Origin: Secundilactobacillus kimchicus JCM 15530
Lineage (GTDB): Bacteria; Bacillota; Bacilli; Lactobacillales; Lactobacillaceae
Direction of reading: 5' to 3'
Length of the DNA: 64,000 nucleotides
NCBI RefSeq assembly: GCF_001433995.1
Contig: NZ_AZCX01000003.1
Coordinates: 62,001-126,000, forward strand
Numbering within the stretch: position 1 is the stretch's first letter; each line of letters starts with the position of its first letter. Positions 39,849-62,319 of this stretch are shown here, piece by piece. Under the pieces are notes generated by a model that searched no databases, was not told the DNA's origin, and saw nothing but the letters and a program-made list of their open reading frames with translations. Both the position numbers and the translations under genes were made by a program.

Positions 39849-41591
39849 TTAGTCTTCCTTACCGAACAACTCATCAGCCCCCAGCATCACACCCCCGGTA
39901 TTCGCTGATGTGACGAGGTACTGGTACCGGGCAAGGTAGCCGAACCGAACCTTCGGCTTGAATGGCGTTAACGTTTGACGCCGTTTAGCAAACTCTGCTT
40001 CTGAAACGGCCACGTCCAGCGTCCGATTCGTCAGGTCAATCGTAATTTGATCGCCATCTTGAATTAACGCGATTTCACCGCCGGAAGCAGCTTCAGGTGA
40101 GACATGGCCCACACAGATGCCATGGGTTGCGCCTGAGAAGCGGCCGTCTGTGATCAAAGCAACATCACGGCCTAATCCCCGGCCAATAATATCTGAGGTG
40201 GGATTCAACATTTCGGGCATTCCCGGCCCACCCTTTGGTCCTTCGTACCGAATAACGACCACGTCACCTGCTTTGACCGTCCCGTTATCAATTCCTTCAA
40301 CGGCATCATCATGTGAGTCAAAACAAACGGCTGTCCCAACAAACTTGTGAATGTCAGGATCAACGCCCGCTACCTTGATAACGGACCCTTCCTTCGCCAC
40401 ATTGCCGTATAGAACGGATAACCCGCCCTGTTCAGAATACGGATTATCCAACGGTCGAATAATCTCGGGATTTAAGGTGTGCGCACCGGCAACGTTCTCA
40501 CGAATTGTTTTGCCCGTCACCGTCGGCCGGTCCGGGTGTAAAGCACCCTTTTCAATTAGCTCATTCATAATAGCCGGGATCCCACCAGCCTGATGAACGT
40601 CCTCCATGTTCCAAGAAGACGATGGTGCGATCTTGGCCAAATGGGGCGTCCGCTTAGCGATCTCGTTAATATCTTGTTCGCTATAATCGATTCCCGCTTC
40701 ATGTGCAATGGCGAGACCATGGAGTACCGTATTAGTCGATCCGCCCATTGCCATATCAAGGGCAAACGCGTCATCAATGGCCTCTTTCGTAATAATGTCA
40801 CGGGGTTTCAAATCGGCCTCAACGTTGGCCATGACCCGTTTTGCGGCTGCCCGAACTAATTCCCGCCGCTGGTCAGAAACGGCCAAAGCTGTGCCGTTAA
40901 ATGGCAGGGCAACCCCTAGTGCTTCCATCAACGAATTCATCGAGTTCGCCGTATACATTCCGGCACACGACCCACAACTTGGACAGGCGTTACGTTCAAG
41001 TTCCATAAAGTCTTCCTTGGTCATTTTGCCATCTTTGAATGCCCCAACGGCTTCAAAAACGGATGACAAGTTGGCCGCCTTCCCGTTTGGATCGACCCCC
41101 GCTTTCATTGGCCCACCGGACACAAAGGCGCACGGAACGTTGGTTCGTAACGACGCCATCAACATCCCCGGTGTGATCTTGTCACAGTTAGGCATGTATA
41201 ACACCCCGTCAAACCAGTGGGCATTAATGACGGTCTCAGCGGAATCAGCAATGATTTCACGGCTAGGTAGGGAGTACCGCATCCCGATATGGCCCATCGC
41301 AATCCCATCGTCGACGCCAATCGTATTAAATTCAAAGGGAATTCCCCCCGCCTTACGGATTTCTTCTTTAGCAATATCTGCTAACTCTCGTAAGTGCACG
41401 TGCCCTGGCACAATTTCTATGTATGAGTTACAAATGGCAATGAAGGGTTTCTTCATATCTTCCGGGTCCTTGACCATCCCGGTGGCGTATAACAAACTTC
41501 GCCCTGGTGCCCGATCAACACCAACGGTGATCTCATCACTTCGCTTTTGCATGTCATCGCCACTGACGGTAAAATTCAGCGTATCGCTCAT
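39849..41591 (-). CDS. ilvD: Dihydroxy-acid dehydratase IlvD
   Basis: Converts 2,3-dihydroxy-isovalerate and -methylvalerate to the keto acids of valine and isoleucine. The cluster-ligating cysteines are seen in [11 protein letters not shown] and [19 protein letters not shown], with late motif GRFSGATHG. The 580 residues are longer than average only by a few. First gene of ilvD-sufT-BASS. Ribosome site AGGAGG. Its promoter/operator resembles that of ilvB. Confidence 0.96.
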
Positions 41592-41650
41592 TCAACAAGC
41601 CTCCTATAAGAAATTTTGAATCATCCATAATGCCGATTCAAATTACACAA

Positions 41651-41691
41651 ATATTATCATTAAATTCTAATTTGTCAACGGATTTTCTAAT
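41651..41691 (-). promoter_or_regulatory. ilvD promoter with TCTAAT direct-repeat operator
   Basis: Minus strand TTGACA (41673-41678), 16-base spacer, TAATAT (41651-41656). On the + strand TCTAAT occurs at 41666-41671 and 41686-41691, on either side of the -35 box, 20 bp apart. The ilvB promoter has the same arrangement. Confidence 0.8.
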
Positions 41692-41858
41692 ATAAGTAGC
41701 TGGGTTACAAAAACCTAGGGCTTCCCCCTATTTACCGACATCCTTTCAAATCGGATTTACAAGTGCTTATTTATCAACGTTTATAGTCGTTAATCTTTGT
41801 GAAACGATTAAATTATTCAGTTCCTTCTATATTAATTAGGAATATCGACGCCCTCATA

Positions 41859-41905
41859 AATATAACTATTTTCTCATTTACTTTTCATTTTTCGTCTGCT
41901 ATGCT
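41859..41905 (+). promoter_or_regulatory. Promoter of the Ile-rich leader (copy 1)
   Basis: TTTACT (41877-41882), 17-base spacer, TATGCT (41900-41905). The upstream AATATAACTATTTTCTCA block is nearly identical to the block before the second leader at 48.7 kb, suggesting a common regulator or a recent duplication. Confidence 0.75.
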
Positions 41906-41935
41906 TTCTCTATTCTTAAAGACGAGGCGACCAAA

Positions 41936-41998
41936 ATGAAAACACCCCAAAATGACAGTCAAATTATTATTTCAATTAACACCCTTATTGTTCATTAA
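41936..41998 (+). CDS. Ile-rich leader peptide (20 codons) for attenuation
   Basis: ATG 41936 has the ribosome site GAGG at 41924-41927. The peptide is MKTPQNDSQIIISINTLIVH: five Ile, one Leu and one Val, seven of them in the last twelve codons. It ends two bases before a set of competing hairpins. Slow reading of Ile codons would hold the ribosome over the first arm and favour read-through into the MHS transporter gene. Confidence 0.82.
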   Translation: MKTPQNDSQIIISINTLIVH

Positions 41999-42000
41999 CA

Positions 42001-42074
42001 GCGGGTGATTTTTGAATTCCCGCAATCGCGGGCATTTTGGGAAGCCAAGAGCCTATCAGGTTCTTGGCTTTTTT
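42001..42074 (+). promoter_or_regulatory. BCAA attenuator, copy 1 (competing hairpins plus terminator)
   Basis: GCGGG (42001-42005) and GCGGG (42028-42032) can each pair with CCCGC (42019-42023), so the two pairings exclude one another. The terminator stem GCCAAGAGCC/GGTTCTTGGC with TTTTTT ends at 42074. Placement right after the leader stop codon is the classical amino-acid attenuator design. Confidence 0.82.
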
Positions 42075-42125
42075 ATTTTCCGTTTCGGCTTTTTGAAGGA
42101 CCAATATATTAGGAAGGTGATTCAC

Positions 42126-43466
42126 ATGCAAGATACAGATGTCTCCACAGCTTCAGCAATGGCGCCGACGCTTGACGCCAATCCTAAGGGGTTAAGTCGC
42201 GACCCCGTTAAAACGGTGGTTTTTGCGTCCATGATTGGAACGGCCATTGAGTTTTACGACTTTTATGCCTATGGGACGGCCGCCGCGGCCTACTTCCCCC
42301 AGGTCTTTTTTCCGGAGGTAACCCCAACAATTGCCACACTGCTCAGTTTGTTGACCTTCGGCGTCGCCTTTGTCGCACGTCCACTGGGTTCCTTAGTCTT
42401 CGGCCACTTCGGCGATAAAATTGGCCGCAAAAATACGCTGATTGTCTCATTACTGTTAATGGGTTGTTCTACGGTCCTAATTGGCGTCCTACCGGGATAC
42501 GCCACGCTCGGGATCACCTCGGTCGTGCTCCTTTGTCTCTGTCGCTTTGTCCAAGGTGTCGGGCTTGGCGGCGAATGGTCCGGGGCTGCTCTGGTTGCCA
42601 CCGAAAATGCGCCAGCTAACCGGCGCGCGCTTTATGGCGCGTTTCCGGAACTGGGTGCGCCACTCGGTTTCTTCTTGAGTAACGGCCTCTTCTTCGTGCT
42701 TGAGATGACGTTGACGCCCGCCCAAATGATTAGTTTCGGTTGGCGGATTCCATTCATCGCCTCCTCGCTACTGGTATTTATCGGCTTTTGGGTTCGGGAA
42801 CGGATGCAGGAAACCCCAATGTTTCGTCTCGCCCAAAAACGTCAGACTGTCACTAAGTCACCGCTGAAAACCGTCTTCAAAACCAGTTGGCGACAGCTAA
42901 TTCAAGGCACGTTCATTGTTTCAGTTACATACACTCTGTTTTACACGCTGGCCACTTGGTCCTTAACCTATGCAACAACGACCCTGGGATTCTCCAATAA
43001 GGAATACCTACTGATGCTAATGGCCGCCATCATTGTTTTTGCCGTCATGATTGTTGTCGCTTCCCAATTTGCTGACGTTTTAGGCCGCCGGCGGGTTTTG
43101 ATTTCCGCCTCCTGCTTACTGTTGCTCTTTGCTTTCGCTTTCCCATACCTGCTACAAGGTCACCGGAACTTTGTTGGCGCTATGACCTTCCTAGTCGTCG
43201 GGTTCATCCTCATGGGAACGGCCTTTGGTCCGGTCGGCGCCGTCTTGCCAGAACTCTTCTCCACTAAGGTCCGATACTCCGGTGCTGGCATTTCCTACAA
43301 CGTCGCCGCCATTGTCGGGGCGGCCTTTGCACCGACCATCGCGACTTGGTTGTCAACGCACTGGGGGATTCAATCAGTGGGCGTCTATCTGGGAATTATG
43401 GCCGTTGCTTGCCTCATCTCTCTGTTGACGGTCAAGGAAACCAAAGAAGTTGATTTCACAAAATAA
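42126..43466 (+). CDS. MHS-family (metabolite:H+ symporter) MFS transporter, BCAA-regulated
   Basis: A 446-residue, 12-segment carrier of the ProP/ShiA/KgtP branch: IGTAIEFYDFYAYGTAAA in segment 1 is the branch hallmark, then GHFGDKIGRKNTL and RFVQGVGLGGEWSGAALVATE. ATG 42126 with AGGAAGGTG is chosen; the longer frame runs back through the terminator. Control by an Ile-rich leader attenuator predicts import of a branched-chain amino acid, or its keto or hydroxy acid, when isoleucine is short. No member of this branch known to me is a BCAA importer. Confidence 0.88.
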   Translation: MQDTDVSTASAMAPTLDANPKGLSRDPVKTVVFASMIGTAIEFYDFYAYGTAAAAYFPQVFFPEVTPTIATLLSLLTFGVAFVARPLGSLVFGHFGDKIGRKNTLIVSLLLMGCSTVLIGVLPGYATLGITSVVLLCLCRFVQGVGLGGEWSGAALVATENAPANRRALYGAFPELGAPLGFFLSNGLFFVLEMTLTPAQMISFGWRIPFIASSLLVFIGFWVRERMQETPMFRLAQKRQTVTKSPLKTVFKTSWRQLIQGTFIVSVTYTLFYTLATWSLTYATTTLGFSNKEYLLMLMAAIIVFAVMIVVASQFADVLGRRRVLISASCLLLLFAFAFPYLLQGHRNFVGAMTFLVVGFILMGTAFGPVGAVLPELFSTKVRYSGAGISYNVAAIVGAAFAPTIATWLSTHWGIQSVGVYLGIMAVACLISLLTVKETKEVDFTK

Positions 43467-43561
43467 TCACCAATGAGCCATTATTCTTTAGCAATCCATC
43501 CGAACCAACGGGATTGCAATGCCAGTCTAGCTTAAAATTAGAACTACTCAGACCAACTAAT

Positions 43562-43611
43562 AAGGGCGTCGTCAGCTTGAAACAATGATCAAGCTGGCGA
43601 CGCCCCTTTAT
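43562..43611. terminator. Bidirectional intrinsic terminator
   Basis: AAGGGCGTCGTCAGCTTGA pairs with TCAAGCTGGCGACGCCCCTT, between the convergent MHS and YlmA-like genes. Confidence 0.88.
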
Positions 43612-43642
43612 TGTCTGCCGATATATTCTGATTGATGACGGG

Positions 43643-44425
43643 CTACTGCGGATAAACCGCCAATCGATCCCCTCGCACGGTCACCGTTTGAATTGGCTTT
43701 TGGTAAAAAGCGGACAGATTATCCACCGTTAATACGCGTTGACGGGGACCAGAACGGACAATTTCACCCTGCCGTAATAAAAGCACGTGCTTGAAACACG
43801 GCAAGATTTCCTCTGTGTAATGAGACACTAACAAGAGGGCTGGCGCATTTGGCAGTTGCGCAATGGCGGCCACTCGTTGCAACAGCTCTTCTCTAGCGAA
43901 TAAGTCCAGGCCGTTGCATGGCTCGTCCAAAATCAGCAACTGTGGGTGCGCCATCATCGCCCTCGCAATCAGCACCAGTTGGCGTTCCCCCTGCGAGAGG
44001 ACCGCGTACGGCTTTCCTATCAACTTAGTACCACCCATTTGCGTTAAAATGGCCGTTGCCTCCTCGATGTCGGCCGCCGTCACCGGCTGGTAAATCCCAA
44101 TACTCGCAAACTTTCCCGATAAGACAATGCCCTCAACTCGGTCTCCCGGATGCAACTGATCCTGTAATGCCGTGCTCACCCAGCCAATTTTCGTTTTTAA
44201 TTTCGGAATACTGGTATGCCCAAAAACACCGCCTAGGACTTCTAAGCGGCCAGAGGTTGGCCAGAGATCACCCTGAATCATTTTAAGCATCGTTGTCTTT
44301 CCAGCACCATTTAGGCCTAGAATCGCCCAATTTTCACCAGTGTTGACCTCCCACGATAGGTGCTTAATAATCTGCCGATTCCCCCGCGTTACTGAGACGT
44401 CATCAAATTTTAAAACTCGTGCCAT
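43643..44425 (-). CDS. YlmA/ModF-like ABC ATPase
   Basis: A 260-residue stand-alone ATPase: Walker A GLNGAGKTT, signature LSQGERQ, Walker B LLILDEPCNGLD, switch LLVSHYTEE. The LSQGE variant and EPCNGLD are usual in the YlmA/ModF-type group. No permease gene is adjacent. Role unknown; it follows ilvC but is separated by a strong terminator, so it is likely a separate or weakly read-through unit. Confidence 0.82.
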   Translation of the reverse strand: MARVLKFDDVSVTRGNRQIIKHLSWEVNTGENWAILGLNGAGKTTMLKMIQGDLWPTSGRLEVLGGVFGHTSIPKLKTKIGWVSTALQDQLHPGDRVEGIVLSGKFASIGIYQPVTAADIEEATAILTQMGGTKLIGKPYAVLSQGERQLVLIARAMMAHPQLLILDEPCNGLDLFAREELLQRVAAIAQLPNAPALLLVSHYTEEILPCFKHVLLLRQGEIVRSGPRQRVLTVDNLSAFYQKPIQTVTVRGDRLAVYPQ

Positions 44426-44448
44426 GCTACGACCTCCTTGTCATTAGC

Positions 44449-44485
44449 TCAAAAAGAGCCGGATGAAGTCATCCCGCTCTTTTTG
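44449..44485 (-). terminator. Terminator of ilvB-ilvC
   Basis: AAAAAGAGC.GGATGA and TCATCC.GCTCTTTTT form a stem with A-run/T-run flanks, 35 bp past the ilvC stop. Confidence 0.87.
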
Positions 44486-44517
44486 GCAAACCGATTAAAG
44501 TTGAAACTGGTCGGCTC

Positions 44518-45600
<1,083 letters not shown>

Positions 45601-45634
45601 TTATAAGCCCCACCTCCCTTCAGTGAGTTCGTGA

Positions 45635-47329
45635 TTACATCCCAATCATATCGTCGTTTCGGTGACCAGGCGCAACCATCGGCCAAGCCTGCTCATCAAC
45701 CGGAATTTGAACGTTGATCAACATGGCTGCCGAATCTTCAAAAATGGCGGTCATTTGATCGGTCAGACTTGCCGCTGGCGATAGCTGACGGTACTGCAAC
45801 CCATACGCTGCCGCCAATTTTTCAAAATCAGGCTGCTGGTTAAACAGCGACTTAAAGCGGTGATGATCATAGAATTCGTCTTGCCACTGGCGAATCATCC
45901 CCAATGCATGATTGTTCATCAAAAAGATTTTGATGTTAAGATTCTCAGCAGAAATCACATCGAGTTCTTCACTAGTCATTTGGAAGCCCCCGTCCCCGAC
46001 GAACAGAACGGTTGGCTTGTCCGGTTGCCCAAAGTGCGCCCCAATCGTGGCAGGAAGACCATAACCCATGGTGCCTAACCCGCCCGAACTCACAATTTGA
46101 TTGGGTCGGCTAAACGGATAGGCCTGCGCGACCCACATCTGGTGTTGGCCGACGTCTGTCACGACGGTTGCATCCCCTGATGTCGCCTCACCGACCGCAG
46201 CGATCACTGCCAGTGGGTCAAATCCCGACTGCGCGGTCGCAGACGCTGCCCGGGTTGGATGAGTCTGTTTATTAGCTTGCGTCTTCGCCCGCCAAGCCGT
46301 TGTCTCTGGCCGGGGCGCCTGGCTCGCTAACATGATCTCAAGAGCAGCTTGCGCATCCGCTTGAACAGCGTACTCAGTATCAAACGTTTTATTGAGCTCC
46401 TTAGGGTCAATATCAATATGCATAATCGTCTTGTTGGCCGCATACCCATCGCGCTTAGGAATCAGCCGATCATCAAAGCGGGAACCAATGTTGACAATAA
46501 AATCCGTGTCAGCCAGTGCCATGTTCGCCGCGTAGGTTCCGTGCATCCCACCCATTCCCAAGAACAGCGGATCGGTCGTGGCGACGGTACCGAGGCCAAG
46601 TAACGTGGCCACGACTGGCAGTTGCCATTTATGTATAAAATCATTGAAGGCTTCAGTCGCATTAGCTGCCCCAACCCCGGCCCCGACAATAGCAATGGGG
46701 CGTTGGGCGTGGCTCAGTGCCGTTAACCCGGCCTGCAAGGTTGAAGTGTCGATTGGCGAACCAGCTGGCGACGTTGGCGAGTCAAGTACCCTTGAAAACT
46801 GGGTCGTTTCGTCTAAAACATCCTTAGGTAGTTCGATTAAAACTGGTCCCTTCCGCCCAGATTGGGCTAATTCAAAGGCCTGAGTAATTGTCGGTTGAAG
46901 ATCTGTAATATCCCTAACCTGGTAATTGGCTTTAACAATTGGCCTAGTAACCGCCATCACATTGAGTTCTTGAAAGGCTTCGGTACCTAGTGCCCCACGG
47001 CCAACTTGACCCGCAAACACCACCATGGGAACCGAGTCCATCATGGCATCCGCGATTCCAGTGACCGCATTACTCGCCCCGGGGCCACTAGTCACACATA
47101 AGACGCCCGTTTTTCCAGTTGTCTTGGCATAGCCTTCGGCCGCATGGGCCGCTCCCTGCTCGTGACGAACCAAGATCAACTCAAACTGCTGACCATACAT
47201 CGCGTCCATCAACGAAAGAATCGTCCCGCCAGGATACCCAAACAGGTGCGTCACATTTTGCTGTCTTAAGCTACTGACTAACACGTCATCCCCCGTCATT
47301 TGATCCGGTTTTGTCTGTACGTCGTTCAT
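45635..47329 (-). CDS. ilvB: Acetohydroxyacid synthase large (catalytic) subunit IlvB
   Basis: ThDP- and FAD-dependent condensation of pyruvate with pyruvate or 2-ketobutyrate. Catalytic Glu in RHEQGAAHAAEGYA, ThDP-binding GDGGFQMTSEELDV..., NNHALG and GMIRQWQDEFYD, whose Trp marks anabolic AHAS rather than catabolic AlsS. ATG 47329 abuts GAGG; alternative starts at 47359 (ATG) or TTG 47335 cannot be excluded. The usual downstream ilvN is missing; a decayed copy seems to lie at 48.9 kb, so the enzyme may be free of valine feedback. Confidence 0.95.
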   Translation of the reverse strand: MNDVQTKPDQMTGDDVLVSSLRQQNVTHLFGYPGGTILSLMDAMYGQQFELILVRHEQGAAHAAEGYAKTTGKTGVLCVTSGPGASNAVTGIADAMMDSVPMVVFAGQVGRGALGTEAFQELNVMAVTRPIVKANYQVRDITDLQPTITQAFELAQSGRKGPVLIELPKDVLDETTQFSRVLDSPTSPAGSPIDTSTLQAGLTALSHAQRPIAIVGAGVGAANATEAFNDFIHKWQLPVVATLLGLGTVATTDPLFLGMGGMHGTYAANMALADTDFIVNIGSRFDDRLIPKRDGYAANKTIMHIDIDPKELNKTFDTEYAVQADAQAALEIMLASQAPRPETTAWRAKTQANKQTHPTRAASATAQSGFDPLAVIAAVGEATSGDATVVTDVGQHQMWVAQAYPFSRPNQIVSSGGLGTMGYGLPATIGAHFGQPDKPTVLFVGDGGFQMTSEELDVISAENLNIKIFLMNNHALGMIRQWQDEFYDHHRFKSLFNQQPDFEKLAAAYGLQYRQLSPAASLTDQMTAIFEDSAAMLINVQIPVDEQAWPMVAPGHRNDDMIGM

Positions 47330-47416
47330 CCTCAAATCATCACATCCTTCGAAAAACACAAATTTTTAATTGCCGTAGCGAGTTTGTGAAAAGCTTGCCT
47401 CGTTGCGATGTGGTTC

Positions 47417-47457
47417 AGATTATCATACATTTTCTAATTGTCAACACATAATCTAAT
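47417..47457 (-). promoter_or_regulatory. ilvB promoter with TCTAAT direct-repeat operator
   Basis: Minus strand TTGACA (47439-47444), 16-base spacer, TAATCT (47417-47422). TCTAAT occurs on the + strand at 47433-47438 and 47452-47457, flanking the -35 box as in ilvD. The ATTATCAT segment at the -10 is also shared. Confidence 0.8.
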
Positions 47458-47654
47458 TGTTTTTTAATCAAACTCCGATCAATTTTTCGGTTTCTTCTAC
47501 TTGTGTCGTCGTCAAAAAATTCGCTAAAAAACTTTTTAAACCAAGCCCACTAACGACATCAGTCACGGCTAATTCGGACCAACCAGAATAATCAACCGTC
47601 ATAGCGAGCTCCAATATGACGTCAACAGTTTCTCATTGTTTTTTAAATTAACGG

Positions 47655-47682
47655 TTGTGTTTTCTCTTGATTGTGATATATT
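47655..47682 (+). promoter_or_regulatory. Promoter of the Val T-box transcript
   Basis: TTGTGT (47655-47660), 16-base spacer, TATATT (47677-47682), just ahead of T-box Stem I. The 47458-47654 stretch between this and the ilvB promoter holds no ORF. Confidence 0.65.
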
Positions 47683-47689
47683 GAACCTC

Positions 47690-47935
47690 AACGAAAAACA
47701 AAAGCAACTTGAAAAGAGTAACGACTAAGGTGCCCCCAGAGAATTCCGGAACGCTGAAACGGAACGCCAGCTTAGTTGCGAACGTAGCTTCAAGAGGTCT
47801 TGCTTTAAGGATGCCGCCTTTATCCGGTTCGATGTTTAACATCAGTGAGGCAGCCATTAGACTGCGAATAAAGGTGGTACCGCGTAAAAACGCCCTTTGA
47901 AGAGCAAAATCTTCAAAGGGCGTTTTATTTTGACG
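47690..47935 (+). promoter_or_regulatory. T-box leader with a GUA (valine) specifier
   Basis: The base stem CTTGAA/TTCAAG encloses an internal loop with AGTA on the 5' side and GAA-C-GTA-G on the 3' side; the specifier GUA is 47784-47786 by analogy with the Met T-box here (GAA-U-AUG-G). The T-box sequence AAGGTGGTACCGCG is at 47871-47884 and the terminator (CGCCCTTTGAAGA/TCTTCAAAGGGCG + TTTTATTTT) at 47890-47931. Valine starvation should induce the next gene. Confidence 0.88.
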
Positions 47936-47972
47936 TTTTTCGTATTTTTAATTCTCGAAAGGACTGATAGTC

Positions 47973-48662
47973 ATGTCATCTCACATTATTTTGGCGGCTG
48001 CAAATGCGCCAATGGCAAAGTTTTTCGAAACGCAGGGTTTTGATTCGCTCTACGTGAACCAAGAATCCGTGGCCAATCAATTATTAGCCACCACCGATGA
48101 ATCCTTAGCCGTCACGGAATACGTGCAATATCTTAAATGCCTGCGGGCAACGACCACCGTCAGGATGTTGGCTGACGCGGCTATTGGATCCGACCCGATT
48201 TCAACGACCATTAACCGAGTTAGCCATTGTGGTATGGATACCATCGTCATTAGTGATGACGACGAAAATCACCGGGCCCTAACGCTTGCCGACTTCTCGA
48301 ACCACATCCAAGCAGCGAGTAGCTGCATCGCCGGCCTCTCCAGCAGCTTAATGCTTAACCTAGGCCACCTTGAACAGTACGGGTACCAAGGACTAAGCGA
48401 ACGAATCAAGCTAACGAAGAACACCAACGTCACGGCCATCGTCGTCAGCCACGTTACCCCAGATGATCTCGGGGGGTTAGCCCCGCTTCTTGCCGAAAAT
48501 CACCAGATCGGCCTGGCCCTCGACCACCCGGATTTTAGCTATGGCATGGTTCAAGCCATGATGCCCGCGTTTATTTTAGATACTTATCATCCGAGTCTTG
48601 CGGCCAAGCAGTCTGTTCAAAATGCTGGTAATTCAGTTATCGCAAAGCTTTTTATGGGATAA
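47973..48662 (+). CDS. Degenerate isocitrate lyase/PEP mutase-superfamily protein under Val T-box control
   Basis: A 229-residue protein whose order of elements follows the ICL/PEPM TIM barrel: FFETQGFDSLYVN, then TDESLAVTEYVQYLKCL, then MLADAAIGSDPISTTINRVSHCGMDTIVISDDD, the place of the DxDTGYG...EDQ active site. The metal-binding DAD and the ED pair are altered (DAAIG, SDD), so classical lyase or mutase chemistry is doubtful, and it is shorter than the usual ~290 residues. Ribosome site GAAAGGA. Control by a valine T-box next to ilv genes suggests a role in BCAA metabolism, possibly with branched 2-keto acids. Function unknown. Confidence 0.6.
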   Translation: MSSHIILAAANAPMAKFFETQGFDSLYVNQESVANQLLATTDESLAVTEYVQYLKCLRATTTVRMLADAAIGSDPISTTINRVSHCGMDTIVISDDDENHRALTLADFSNHIQAASSCIAGLSSSLMLNLGHLEQYGYQGLSERIKLTKNTNVTAIVVSHVTPDDLGGLAPLLAENHQIGLALDHPDFSYGMVQAMMPAFILDTYHPSLAAKQSVQNAGNSVIAKLFMG

Positions 48663-48681
48663 TCCAAAATATTCCTACCAG

Positions 48682-48728
48682 AATATAATTATTTTATCAT
48701 TTACTTTTAATCTTATCATTGCTATGCT
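48682..48728 (+). promoter_or_regulatory. Promoter of the Ile/Val/Leu-rich leader (copy 2)
   Basis: TTTACT (48700-48705), 17-base spacer, TATGCT (48723-48728), preceded by AATATAATTATTTTATCA. It aligns base for base with the promoter at 41859-41905 over about 45 positions with few changes. Confidence 0.75.
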
Positions 48729-48771
48729 TCATGTTATCAAAACGAAATCACTTAAATCGAGGTAAACAACT

Positions 48772-48834
48772 ATGAACCAACACACCGTCTTAATTTTAAA
48801 GAGCTTATCTGTTGCTGTCGTGATTATTATTTAA
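48772..48834 (+). CDS. BCAA-rich leader peptide (20 codons), copy 2
   Basis: ATG 48772 has the ribosome site GAGG (48759-48762). The peptide MNQHTVLILKSLSVAVVIII has eleven Val/Leu/Ile residues out of twenty, ending in three Ile codons directly before TAA. It has the same length as the leader at 41936 and is followed by the same hairpin set, so it is a leader for transcription attenuation by BCAA supply. Confidence 0.88.
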   Translation: MNQHTVLILKSLSVAVVIII

Positions 48835-48837
48835 TCT

Positions 48838-48927
48838 GCGGGCAAGATTTGACGAGCCCGCAAACCTGCGGGCAGTGTTGGCGAGAGCCGGAAGCTGCTA
48901 ATTGTAGCTTCCGGCTCTTTATTTTTT
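48838..48927 (+). promoter_or_regulatory. BCAA attenuator, copy 2
   Basis: GCGGGC (48838-48843), GCCCGC (48856-48861) and GCGGGC (48868-48873) offer two exclusive pairings, followed by the terminator GAGCCGGAAGCT/AGCTTCCGGCTC with TTTATTTTTT to 48927. Same architecture as copy 1. Confidence 0.85.
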
Positions 48928-48946
48928 ACCAGAAAGGAGGGATTTT

Positions 48947-49210
48947 ATGACCACTATCATCACACTATTGTGCTTATCGTTTCTCTGGTTGCGGCTCACT
49001 CGGTTCAACAACCATCACAAACGCCACCAAACCACTAACTTAATGGTTTGTTGTCGACCTTATCGGTGGCGGACAAGACCAGCCAGCGTCGCGTTTGACC
49101 AAATTCGGGACTTCACTGGTAATCAGTGAATCCGTTGCTAACTGTTTCAATCGCAACGCCCACATAAGACTCAACTTCGCATTTTTGCGACACATAGCTG
49201 GTGGCGCAAC
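48947..49210 (+). pseudogene. ilvN: Probable decayed ilvN (AHAS regulatory subunit)
   Basis: A strong ribosome site (AAAGGAGG) and ATG 48947 follow the second attenuator, but the frame opened there gives only 60 residues. Pieces in different frames read like an IlvN ACT domain in order: TIVLIV (frame of 48949), LRLTRFNNHH (48947), LSTLSVAD (48949) and QDQPASRLT (48948). At least three shifts are needed. The missing ilvN between ilvB and ilvC and the BCAA leader in front support the reading. Multi-frame matching by eye can mislead, so confidence is moderate. Confidence 0.45.
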
Positions 49211-49397
49211 CAGCAGTCACTCGTTGATCAGGCGGGCCCACCTGTCAACCATCCATAATCCAATATTGGTGTTTTCACCATTCCCCAGTCCCGCTAATAC
49301 TTGATTGACCGCGGCTGGACACATATTCTTCATTAAGATTTTAATATTAATGAAGAAACTGGTTATTTTTGAACTGTTCAACCAAGAATAACCCACA
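49211..49397. other. Non-coding stretch after the decayed ilvN
   Basis: No convincing gene. It holds an inverted repeat CTTCATTAA..TTAATGAAG at about 49330-49357, and scattered short frames that look like decayed coding sequence. Confidence 0.45.
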
Positions 49398-49432
49398 TAA
49401 AAACGCCTAGAACAACCGTCCTAGGCGTTACA
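49398..49432 (-). terminator. Terminator of the glycerol-dehydrogenase-like gene
   Basis: AACGCCTAGGACGG..TTCTAGGCGTTTTTAT on the minus strand: a GC-containing stem with a five-T tail. Confidence 0.85.
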
Positions 49433-49440
49433 TATTACTA

Positions 49441-50541
49441 TTAAATGGCTACTTTCGCACTGACTTGCTCCACCGTTGCAATGGCCTCTCGAACCACTGC
49501 CGCGGTGACCGGCTTTTCCGTCGGCACAAAGTGCATCTGCGTGCTTGGGTCGGCCGCCGCTTCAGCTACCTTTTCAATGTCAGCTTCACTCGCATGACCC
49601 AAGTCAACCTCTGCTAAATTGGTTGGCAATCCAAGCGCCCGGTAAAATGGCAGCAGGTCCTTGATGTCATCTTCTTGGCCTTCAATGGCCAGCAACACCA
49701 AAATACCATAAGCCACCTTAGCACCATGCAAATGCGGTGCGGTCTCAGGGAAGATGGTTAGGGCATCATGGATGGCGTGAGCACCAGAGGCTCGGCCGTA
49801 ATCATCTCCCCAGCCGCCCACTGTGCCAGCCATCACAGTCACTGTTTCAGCGACTTGGCGCCAACGAGGTGTTAGCTTACCAGCTTTCATATCCTCAACG
49901 GCCCCAATGGCATTTTTCAACAAGACGTCCTTACAGTTGTTAGCCATCTGCTGGGAGATTGTCAGGGCTACCGTGTATTGATCTTCAGGTAACTGCTTAA
50001 AAATCAATTCTGACTCATAGAACTTCGCCAGCGTGTCGCCAATACCAGCCACGAAGTACTCGATTGGCGAATTCAAAATAACCTTGGGATTCAACAACAT
50101 CAAATTAGCGGTTTCCAAGTAAATCTCGTGATCCACGTGTTCGCCGGATTCCTTATAATGCACGGAAATCGCTGACCATGGCGAGCAGTTGCTCGCCAAC
50201 GTTGGAATTAAGACCAGATAACGATGCGTACCAGTCGTAACGCTCTTGGCAGTATCCAGCACCTTACCACCACCTAGGCCAATGACCATATCAACGTCAT
50301 TTTCATCCGCAATGGCTCGGACGCGAGCGATTTCTTCGTAAGAACACTCACCGCCAAACGGCACGTCCACGACATCAACATCCGCGGGCCAAGCTGGTAA
50401 GTATGGTTGGGCTGCGGCTAATGATTTCTGGCCGTGTAAAAATAACACGGTTTTCACCTTTAAGTCGGCCATGAACCCTGGTAATTGGTCGTAAGCCTCG
50501 TTGTCTGAAATGTAGCGCTGTGGTCCACTTTGTGAAATCAT
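49441..50541 (-). CDS. Iron-containing alcohol dehydrogenase family protein, GldA-like
   Basis: A 366-residue protein of the glycerol dehydrogenase branch: nucleotide-binding GLGGGKVLDTAKSV (about residue 90), PTLASNCSPWSAISV, and metal ligands expected in GIGDTLAKFYE, AHAIHDALT and HGAKVAYG. ATG 50541 is preferred (AAAGGAC upstream) over the longer 50571 start. Likely oxidises glycerol or a similar diol with NAD; the 50542-50779 gap before it holds its promoter and the terminator of the next gene. Confidence 0.87.
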   Translation of the reverse strand: MISQSGPQRYISDNEAYDQLPGFMADLKVKTVLFLHGQKSLAAAQPYLPAWPADVDVVDVPFGGECSYEEIARVRAIADENDVDMVIGLGGGKVLDTAKSVTTGTHRYLVLIPTLASNCSPWSAISVHYKESGEHVDHEIYLETANLMLLNPKVILNSPIEYFVAGIGDTLAKFYESELIFKQLPEDQYTVALTISQQMANNCKDVLLKNAIGAVEDMKAGKLTPRWRQVAETVTVMAGTVGGWGDDYGRASGAHAIHDALTIFPETAPHLHGAKVAYGILVLLAIEGQEDDIKDLLPFYRALGLPTNLAEVDLGHASEADIEKVAEAAADPSTQMHFVPTEKPVTAAVVREAIATVEQVSAKVAI

Positions 50542-50730
50542 TGTCGTCAGTCCTTTGTGTTGCCCGGTCATGTGCCGGGCTTATTTATGTAGTAAGCCGC
50601 AACTCTCTGTCTGCGTGCTAACGGAAATTTATTATCGGCTTTATAAAATGAAAAGTCAAGGATGATTTTAATTCTATTTTAATAAAAACTCAAATCTGGT
50701 ATTTTCTATTTTGACTCTGGTCACCCGATT

Positions 50731-61479: not shown

Positions 61480-62319
61480 ATGACAATTCCAACCGTGACA
61501 CTCAATGATGGTCACAAAATGCCAGCCATCGGATTAGGCACCTACCAAATTCGTGGTGGCGCTGGTCTCGATCAAATTCTAGCTGCTATTCAGGACGGTT
61601 ACCGCTCGCTAGACAGTGCAACGAACTACGATAATGAGGGGATTGTGGGCAAAGCCATCCGCCGCTCTGGCGTCCCCCGTAGCGATTTCTTCGTCAGCTC
61701 GAAGTTGCCTGGCAAGTACCACCGCTACGACGACGCGCTTAAGGCAATCGAGGAGTCGCTAGCCCGAATGGGATTAGATTACTTTGATCTCTTTTTAATT
61801 CACTGGCCACTGCCCAAACGCGACCACTACGTTGAAGCCTGGCAAGCTTTAATTACCGCCCAAAAACTGGGCCTGATTCGGGCCATTGGGGTCTCAAACT
61901 TTGAACCTGACCACTTAGATCGCCTCATTAACGAAACCGGTGTTACCCCCGCTGTGAACCAGATTGAGATTCACCCTTACTGGATTAACACCGACCGGTT
62001 GCTGGCCAATAAAGACCGGGGCATCGTGACTGAAGCCTGGAGCCCCCTCGGTCGTGGTAGCGCAGCGCTGACAGAACCCGCAATTCTAGAACTCGCCAAG
62101 AAATATGGCAAGAACGCTGGTCAGATTATCCTGAGGTGGCATACGCAACGCGGCGTGGTGCCATTACCAAAATCCAGCAGTCTCCAACATCAGCGCGACA
62201 ATCTCGATATTTTCGATTTCCGGTTAACCCCTGAAGAAATTCGAATCATTGACGGGTTAAATAAACCAGATGGCCGCGTCGACGGTCAGGATCCAAACGA
62301 ATACGAAGAATTTGAGTAA
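61480..62319 (+). CDS. Aldo/keto reductase
   Basis: A 279-residue NADPH-dependent (alpha/beta)8 reductase: catalytic Asp/Tyr in DSATNYDNEG, Lys in VSSKLPG, LIHWPLP, IGVSNFEPDHL and the cofactor site LPKSSSLQHQRDN. Similar enzymes in lactobacilli reduce aldehydes and keto esters. Ribosome site AGGAGGCG. Single-gene unit ending in a strong terminator. Confidence 0.93.
   Translation: MTIPTVTLNDGHKMPAIGLGTYQIRGGAGLDQILAAIQDGYRSLDSATNYDNEGIVGKAIRRSGVPRSDFFVSSKLPGKYHRYDDALKAIEESLARMGLDYFDLFLIHWPLPKRDHYVEAWQALITAQKLGLIRAIGVSNFEPDHLDRLINETGVTPAVNQIEIHPYWINTDRLLANKDRGIVTEAWSPLGRGSAALTEPAILELAKKYGKNAGQIILRWHTQRGVVPLPKSSSLQHQRDNLDIFDFRLTPEEIRIIDGLNKPDGRVDGQDPNEYEEFE

Follow-up and report, generated by a model that had tools for sequence, protein, structure and literature searches.

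A putative isoleucine-codon leader-peptide attenuator family of Lactobacillaceae found upstream of an MHS-type transporter and genes of branched-chain amino acid metabolism

The ilv and trp attenuators of Escherichia coli combine a leader peptide with a strand logic of alternative pairings, 1:2, 2:3 and 3:4. The sections of the literature drawn upon here describe, besides the E. coli ilv attenuator (PMC6123439), the ilv-leu attenuator of Staphylococcus aureus with its Leu-rich 26-residue peptide before the ilv operon (PMC5794164), and further leader attenuators for branched-chain amino acids (BCAA) in Listeria monocytogenes, with others predicted in Lactococcus lactis, Streptococcus and Corynebacterium (PMC5794164, PMC6123439). 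Comparable sections for other groups report His leader peptides preceding hisS paralogs in bacilli (PMC2965389), and ilvB leaders and the LEU element in Actinobacteria, where the genes are named ilvB and leuA (PMC1262725). For several Gram-positive bacteria these sources report or predict that BCAA synthesis is attenuated through a leader peptide, and the kind of mechanism is thus already known. Here we analyze two elements of this kind in a 64,000-nucleotide stretch of Secundilactobacillus kimchicus JCM 15530 (positions 62,001 to 126,000 of contig NZ_AZCX01000003.1, hereafter the window, to which all coordinates refer): copy 1, which precedes the gene of an MHS-type transporter, and copy 2, located further downstream. 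Our literature search covered open-access articles, with subscription journals and supplements outside it, and yielded no report describing this attenuator family in lactobacilli, none with MHS as a target, and none of a leader ahead of MHS-ilvC in bifidobacteria. No codY was observed in Lactobacillus according to the pertinent part of PMC5712122, and TIGR02787 detected no CodY in the S. kimchicus genome; this raises the question of how Ile is sensed for its uptake and synthesis. Between 34829 and 60399 there is also no BCARR box (AAAAANNCTWTTATT) with up to two mismatches, the BCARR gene itself not having been searched for.

Both copies are very probably ribosome-mediated (leader-peptide) transcription attenuators that sense charged tRNA-Ile, together with Val and Leu, the basis in hand being conserved leader open reading frames (ORFs), covarying and mutually exclusive pairings, terminators and BCAA-related targets. 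All features of both copies lie on the plus strand. Copy 1 starts with a promoter-like sequence at 41877-41905 (TTTACT at 41877-41882, a 17-nt spacer and TATGCT at 41900-41905) within the conserved block TCATTTACTTTTCATTTT, followed by a leader ORF at 41936-41998 that encodes 20 residues (MKTPQNDSQIIISINTLIVH, then the stop codon), 7 of them Ile, Leu or Val. Segment 1 of the leader (CCCCAAAATG, 41945-41954) has segment D (CATTTTGGG, 42033-42041) as its partner in a helix termed P1, and D can alternatively pair with the 5' arm of the terminator. Immediately 3' of the leader stop codon comes segment A (GCGGG, 42001-42005), and segment B (CCCGC, 42019-42023) can pair with either A or segment C (GCGGG, 42028-42032). 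The antiterminator strands occupy 42030-42040 and 42045-42054, and a terminator scan places an intrinsic terminator with a T tail at 42039-42073 (-21.8 kcal/mol when folded), ahead of the gene for a 446-residue MHS-type transporter of the MFS (42126-43466; profile matches to TIGR00883 and PRK09952). Copy 2 repeats this arrangement with a promoter at 48700-48728 (TTTACT at 48700-48705, a 17-nt spacer, TATGCT at 48723-48728), a 20-residue leader at 48772-48834 (MNQHTVLILKSLSVAVVIII, then the stop codon; 11 Ile, Leu or Val), a segment 1 (CCAACAC, 48777-48783) whose P1 partner is GTGTTGG at 48875-48881, and an A/B/C block at 48837-48873 (TGCGGGC at 48837-48843, GCCCGC at 48856-48861, TGCGGGC at 48867-48873). 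Its antiterminator (48872-48898) joins GCAGTGTTGGC at 48872-48882 to GCCGGAAGCTGC at 48887-48898, and its intrinsic terminator, again with a T tail in the terminator scan, spans 48883-48919 (-24.9 kcal/mol).

The original prediction had pointed out the common design, the near-identical promoters and the 7 and 11 BCAA residues per leader, and these descriptions agree with the features listed above and with the 86% identity of the two promoter blocks over 48 nt. A consensus scan listed both terminators and neither promoter, TTTACT/TATGCT falling below its threshold. Transcription is predicted to begin near 41911 in copy 1 and near 48734 in copy 2, shortly past the -10 boxes. Compared with dinucleotide shuffles, RNA folding gave z values of -6.1 for copy 1 and -7.0 for copy 2, 0 of 200 shuffles being as good in either case. 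At E up to 1, the covariance model R1 recovered only these two copies in the genome, with an E-value biased by its training on both. A tandem-repeat artefact was ruled out, there being no tandem repeats at 41500-49500. The promoter block is kept 5' of MHS across the genus, even at copies where no leader was found. As a separate observation, the block TCATTTACTTTTMATTTT has seven sites with up to two mismatches in the genome, as against none for the reversed control; they include 50645-50662 on the minus strand of the window and G000:C42:67972-67989, and one lies upstream of a glycerol-dehydrogenase-like gene (49441-50541), so that a shared operator is possible.

The properties of the family were established from two sets of elements. 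Alignment A3 comprises 34 elements, namely 31 named loci, copies 1 and 2, and locus L016. Set A4 has 57 rows, from which the six weakest by E-value, some of them partial second matches, were excluded; it was collected with a model that included B:C and lacked A:B, P1 and the antiterminator, and it shares one element with A3 (L137, the same as L016). All 34 A3 leaders are open, against 9.5 expected under shuffling, a difference inflated by the choice of ORF, and a Shine-Dalgarno-like string stands 5' of 26 of them. The Ile fraction of these leaders is 0.33 in frame versus 0.04 and 0.01 in the other frames, and that of Ile, Leu and Val together 0.48 versus 0.37 and 0.03. Besides the terminator, four pairings are seen in A3: P1, between leader codons 2-8 and segment D behind C; A:B and B:C, the alternative pairings of the three-strand block; and the antiterminator, in which the end of C and D pair with the terminator 5' arm. 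Segment D is claimed by both P1 and the antiterminator, the 5' arm by both the antiterminator and the terminator, and the end of C by both B:C and the antiterminator.

Each of these pairings is supported by covariation. In A3, P1 reaches -11.0 kcal/mol with its own partners versus -6.8 with those of other genus groups (0 of 2000 permutations equalled this; 0 of 4000 with one element per genus group), and in 50 A4 elements, one of 51 having been left out with no terminator aligned, the values are -13.2 versus -8.5 with other target classes (0 of 2000). The antiterminator is paired in 86.4% of A3 cells, a level reached by 0 of 500 shuffles, and 6 of its 8 pairs show two-sided changes, a count matched by 3 of 500; permutations as good number 0 of 2000 in both A3 and A4, and 7 of 4000 when each genus group is represented by one element. 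B:C and the terminator together are 94.9% paired, with two-sided changes in 15 of 19 pairs (0 of 500 shuffles for both measures), and for A:B as well as B:C 0 of 2000 permutations were as good in either set. In Sporolactobacillus the leader start, D and the terminator arm have changed in concert. BCAA leader-peptide attenuation, a prediction that was to fail if related genomes did not conserve leader ORFs or hairpins, has good comparative support, both being conserved there, and the covariation proposed as a check extends to the later-found elements. By eye, an AGC Ser codon within the Ile run (IIISII) could additionally pair with GCUG behind segment A to form a further leader hairpin in the BrnQ, hydratase, Loigolactobacillus, Agrilactobacillus and Liquorilactobacillus elements.

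An initial DNA search showed that the region upstream of copy 1 recurs in the genus, where Ile-rich leaders of diverged sequence precede the MHS transporter. Among the best 80 of 505 related stretches in a protein scan of named genomes, MHS relatives occur mainly in Secundilactobacillus, Loigolactobacillus, Agrilactobacillus, Liquorilactobacillus, Paucilactobacillus, Lentilactobacillus, Sporolactobacillus and Bifidobacterium. An Ile-rich leader with the hairpin block accompanies 31 of the 37 non-Bifidobacterium MHS loci, as counted by eye with ATG-start ORFs selected by the authors; of the other six, L028, L030 and L077 lie so near a contig end that under 330 nt of upstream sequence is available, and no leader is seen at L047, L048 or L076. 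The genus itself has nine MHS copies in 7 of 15 genomes, six of them with the element. At the Secundilactobacillus loci L047, L048 and L006, where MHS is about 66-68% identical, the promoter block is retained and no leader element was found. Among 397 sampled Lactobacillaceae genomes, 74 contained R1 matches, 95 in all, some weak ones (E 1e-4 to 1e-3) possibly being due to chance. An order-wide search was positive in 8 of 395 genomes, seven of them Lactobacillaceae, and a class-wide search of 398 only in the genome under study, even though the element is present in Sporolactobacillus. On plasmids, MHS relatives with 60-80% identity were seen in 47 records, 29 of them from Lactiplantibacillus.

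The targets of the 95 matches, sorted by BLAST clusters of the downstream ORF, are MHS in 45 cases (40 sorted matches, copy 1 and four genus loci), the BCAA carrier BrnQ in 13, IlvD in 11 and a 2-keto-4-pentenoate-hydratase-like gene in 11, followed by a PTS_EIIC_2-like protein (4), an ApbE-like protein (2) and a lactate/malate-dehydrogenase-like protein (2) that might be a 2-hydroxyisocaproate dehydrogenase. The rest are one each of three others (L135, L150, L158), the targetless copy 2, two matches at contig ends and one that is probably false. Control of an MHS-branch transporter, claimed earlier for this locus, is thus supported in many species. In this sorting the element position of L106 was misjudged, L132 and L137 represent a single element retrieved twice, L168 looks false, and L112, L166 and L168 gave no downstream ORF; distances run from the first possible start codon. 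Families were checked with hidden Markov models on examples rather than every match: two BrnQ proteins, and one IlvD besides that of the window, exceed the NCBIfam cut-off; the ApbE, PTS_EIIC_2 and dehydrogenase examples are above the Pfam cut-off and exceed no NCBIfam one; and the hydratase-like example has matches below cut-off only. Leaders before the non-MHS targets are also rich in Ile and Val. Searches for known Rfam families at gathering score found none in the window and, in seven loci, a single tRNA in L151, at a distance from the element. In relatives a strong Shine-Dalgarno string, frequently GGAGGTGA, lies no more than 55 nt behind the terminator and in many cases far from where the gene begins (in the window at 48932-48941); it is present at 24 of 39 MHS loci versus 3.0 expected from a mononucleotide shuffle only, and at 11 of 20 other loci, at some of them at the gene start itself. 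Its role might be to stabilize the mRNA made by read-through, or to initiate a very small second ORF.

In the mechanism proposed here, an RNA without a ribosome, or one left by a fast-finishing ribosome, would pair its leader start with D (P1) and B with C, upon which the terminator would form and transcription halt. Under Ile shortage the ribosome would wait at the Ile codons, P1 would be blocked, and A would be free to pair with B; C/D would then pair with the terminator 5' arm as the antiterminator, and RNA polymerase would continue into the MHS gene. What we infer here is the sequence of these steps, the primacy of Ile as signal and the part of A:B in detecting ribosomes at the stop codon. 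The RNA was modelled as folded before the terminator 3' arm is made, with the ribosome footprint masked and with or without pairing across the ribosome. When such pairing was disallowed and the leader occupied, the antiterminator probability rose above the free-RNA value by more than 0.1 in 31 of 34 elements and was lower in none; when it was allowed, a stalled ribosome exceeded one at the stop codon by more than 0.1 in 19 of 34. In copy 2 the probability is 0.77-0.98 at most ribosome positions, with one dip to 0.33, and 0.04-0.17 with the ribosome on the last three codons including the stop. In copy 1 it is low past the first codons when pairing across the ribosome is allowed, and 0.97 versus 0.00 for free RNA when it is disallowed. 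Modelling support for the predicted switch is less clear in copy 1 than in copy 2.

Several results weigh against this reading. With pairing across the ribosome the order of stall and stop was reversed in seven elements (p 0.007 for the comparison), and copy 1 shows no switch (0.03 versus 0.01); without it, no difference between stall and stop is seen (11 up, 9 down, p 0.18), and the modelling therefore leaves the stop-codon role of A/B/C unsupported. The terminators are more stable than the antiterminators (means of -19.8 versus -9.6), and a kinetic switch must therefore be assumed. P1 is no better than chance partners in three elements of the PTS group (-7.5 versus -8.7), nor is the antiterminator in two ApbE elements (-13.6 versus -13.9); seven of the 34 sequences used for counting had served to draw the antiterminator in the first place; and three of the nine genus MHS copies are without the element. 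In view of the ribosome-mask folding we hold the main predicted switch to be P1 versus the antiterminator, with the A/B/C toggle conserved and its role putative.

A side question, compatible with attenuation as proposed here, concerns the target of copy 2, all parts of which are present and which has no recognizable target gene in this genome. Its terminator is followed by a strong Shine-Dalgarno string (GAAAGGAGGG) and a 60-residue ORF (48947-49129; 48932-49129 together, plus strand) without recognized relatives: no Pfam or NCBIfam family matched it at E 0.001, and region 48930-49470 had no match among 1,784 ORFs of at least 150 residues from the studied loci and the window. The ilvN remnant proposed earlier as the target did not hold up, since ilvN (TIGR00119) was not found in the genome at E 0.001, a search positive in 13 of 14 control genomes. 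It is nearly an even matter whether copy 2 has lost its target and is now inactive: no target is recognized downstream and S. collinoides and S. similis have a different neighborhood 3' of the PEP-mutase-like gene, while its parts are all intact and it scores 101.5 bits against a covariance model trained on copy 2 itself. The PEP-mutase-like gene in question (47973-48662, plus strand) encodes a 229-residue protein with a weak, below-cut-off likeness to PEP mutase (PF13714) and no close solved structure was found for it. A T-box precedes it at 47702-47900 (75.1 bits; gathering score 93), whose specifier, judged by eye, could be GUA (Val). S. collinoides has a T-box and a PEP-mutase-like gene too (L023 15583-15782, 64.3 bits), and in S. 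similis GGTGGTACCGCG precedes a similar gene.

Among explanations that compete with stalling at Ile codons, the most durable is that the leader is translated and the switch is set by initiation, that is, by general translation or ribosome supply. P1 spans codons 2-8, so that a ribosome there blocks it at any speed, and the clearest modelled effect is the presence versus absence of a ribosome rather than stall versus stop. Nevertheless, a third of the A3 leader codons are in-frame Ile codons while other residues drift, and the leaders of other targets share the Ile/Val bias, BrnQ and IlvD being BCAA genes; we consider this alternative unlikely. That the hairpins merely terminate an upstream transcript and the ORFs are chance products of AT-rich DNA, where ATT codons come easily, terminators being common, is highly improbable given the promoter-like sequence right before each leader, the five covarying helices in an order conserved across many genera, and the excess of open frames, even inflated as it is. 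T-boxes are common tRNA sensors in this group, and one lies in the window; a T-box or metabolite riboswitch sensing the signal beside an incidental ORF can hardly be the answer here, as neither leader matches an Rfam family even at E up to 1, and the T-box model matches only the element before the gene at 47973, which rules it out at the two leaders. The contrast drawn earlier with lactobacilli as T-box users is accordingly half right: the leaders lack a T-box, and the window itself holds one.

The best family for the transporter is TIGR00883, matched over nearly the full length at 413.1 bits, just below the curated cut-off of 443.45, and 'MHS-type' is used as a label in view of this score; the shikimate transporter PRK09952 gives 288 bits (cut-off 538). 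The only solved structures near it are distant MFS proteins (best E 2.4e-11, a phosphate transporter), and no substrate is therefore inferred from structure. Of the 37 MHS loci outside Bifidobacterium, 9 have ilv genes in the flanking DNA retrieved, which at some loci is cut short by the contig end. In Bifidobacterium the related MHS gene shows 62-68% identity; in 42 of 43 loci ilvC lies downstream of it in the same orientation, no more than 600 nt away, and in 42 of 43 DNA coding for R-I-I is found within 500 nt upstream. The leaders there (L051-L101) are short ORFs with ATT Ile codons, most of which end in PSSLAD or a similar sequence; inspection by eye shows GC-rich hairpins with T tails behind them. 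They look like a separate attenuator family with no visible likeness to the lactobacillar leader. Two apparently unrelated Ile-codon leaders before related transporters are the best evidence that the MHS transporter belongs to BCAA metabolism, a candidate role by association that is strengthened by the ilv neighbors.

Tentatively, and with somewhat more doubt than confidence, we propose that one RNA family is the chief Ile sensor of CodY-less Lactobacillaceae, uniting uptake of BCAA through BrnQ, their synthesis through IlvD and the MHS transporter in one regulon; that the three-strand toggle behind the stop codon would tell a stalled from a finishing ribosome; and that MHS might be a new class of BCAA-pathway transporter, for BCAA themselves or for 2-oxo or 2-hydroxy acids, that came under Ile-codon attenuators on two independent occasions, once in lactobacilli and once in bifidobacteria. 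A conserved attenuator family would provide both an Ile sensor and its regulon, ready reporters for food bacteria and a route to transporters via the leader peptide, and the orphan transporter family shared with bifidobacteria becomes a testable candidate for BCAA-pathway transport.

When set against known systems, the present family shares with the E. coli ilv and trp attenuators the 1:2, 2:3, 3:4 strand logic plus leader peptide, and differs in that strand 1 is the leader ORF start and an extra three-strand block stands between strands 1 and 2. As the pertinent sections of PMC5794164 describe it, S. aureus ilv-leu is likewise a Gram-positive BCAA-rich leader peptide with a terminator and antiterminator before BCAA genes; here Ile-rich leaders precede transporters and ilvD, and an A/B/C block is present, the two being compared by description. 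The attenuators of Listeria, Lactococcus, Streptococcus and Corynebacterium, as far as their accounts go, also combine a BCAA-rich peptide with attenuation of BCAA genes, and differ in serving biosynthetic genes, again in a comparison of descriptions. The leaders of bacillar hisS paralogs, in the part of PMC2965389 devoted to them, parallel the present case as leader-peptide attenuation in Firmicutes where others use T-boxes, whereas they use His codons and serve genes of the aminoacyl-tRNA synthetase type. Finally, the actinobacterial ilvB leaders and LEU element, in the section of PMC1262725 that treats them, resemble the Bifidobacterium leaders in having BCAA codon runs before BCAA genes, those genes being ilvB and leuA, whereas the Bifidobacterium leaders stand before MHS-ilvC.

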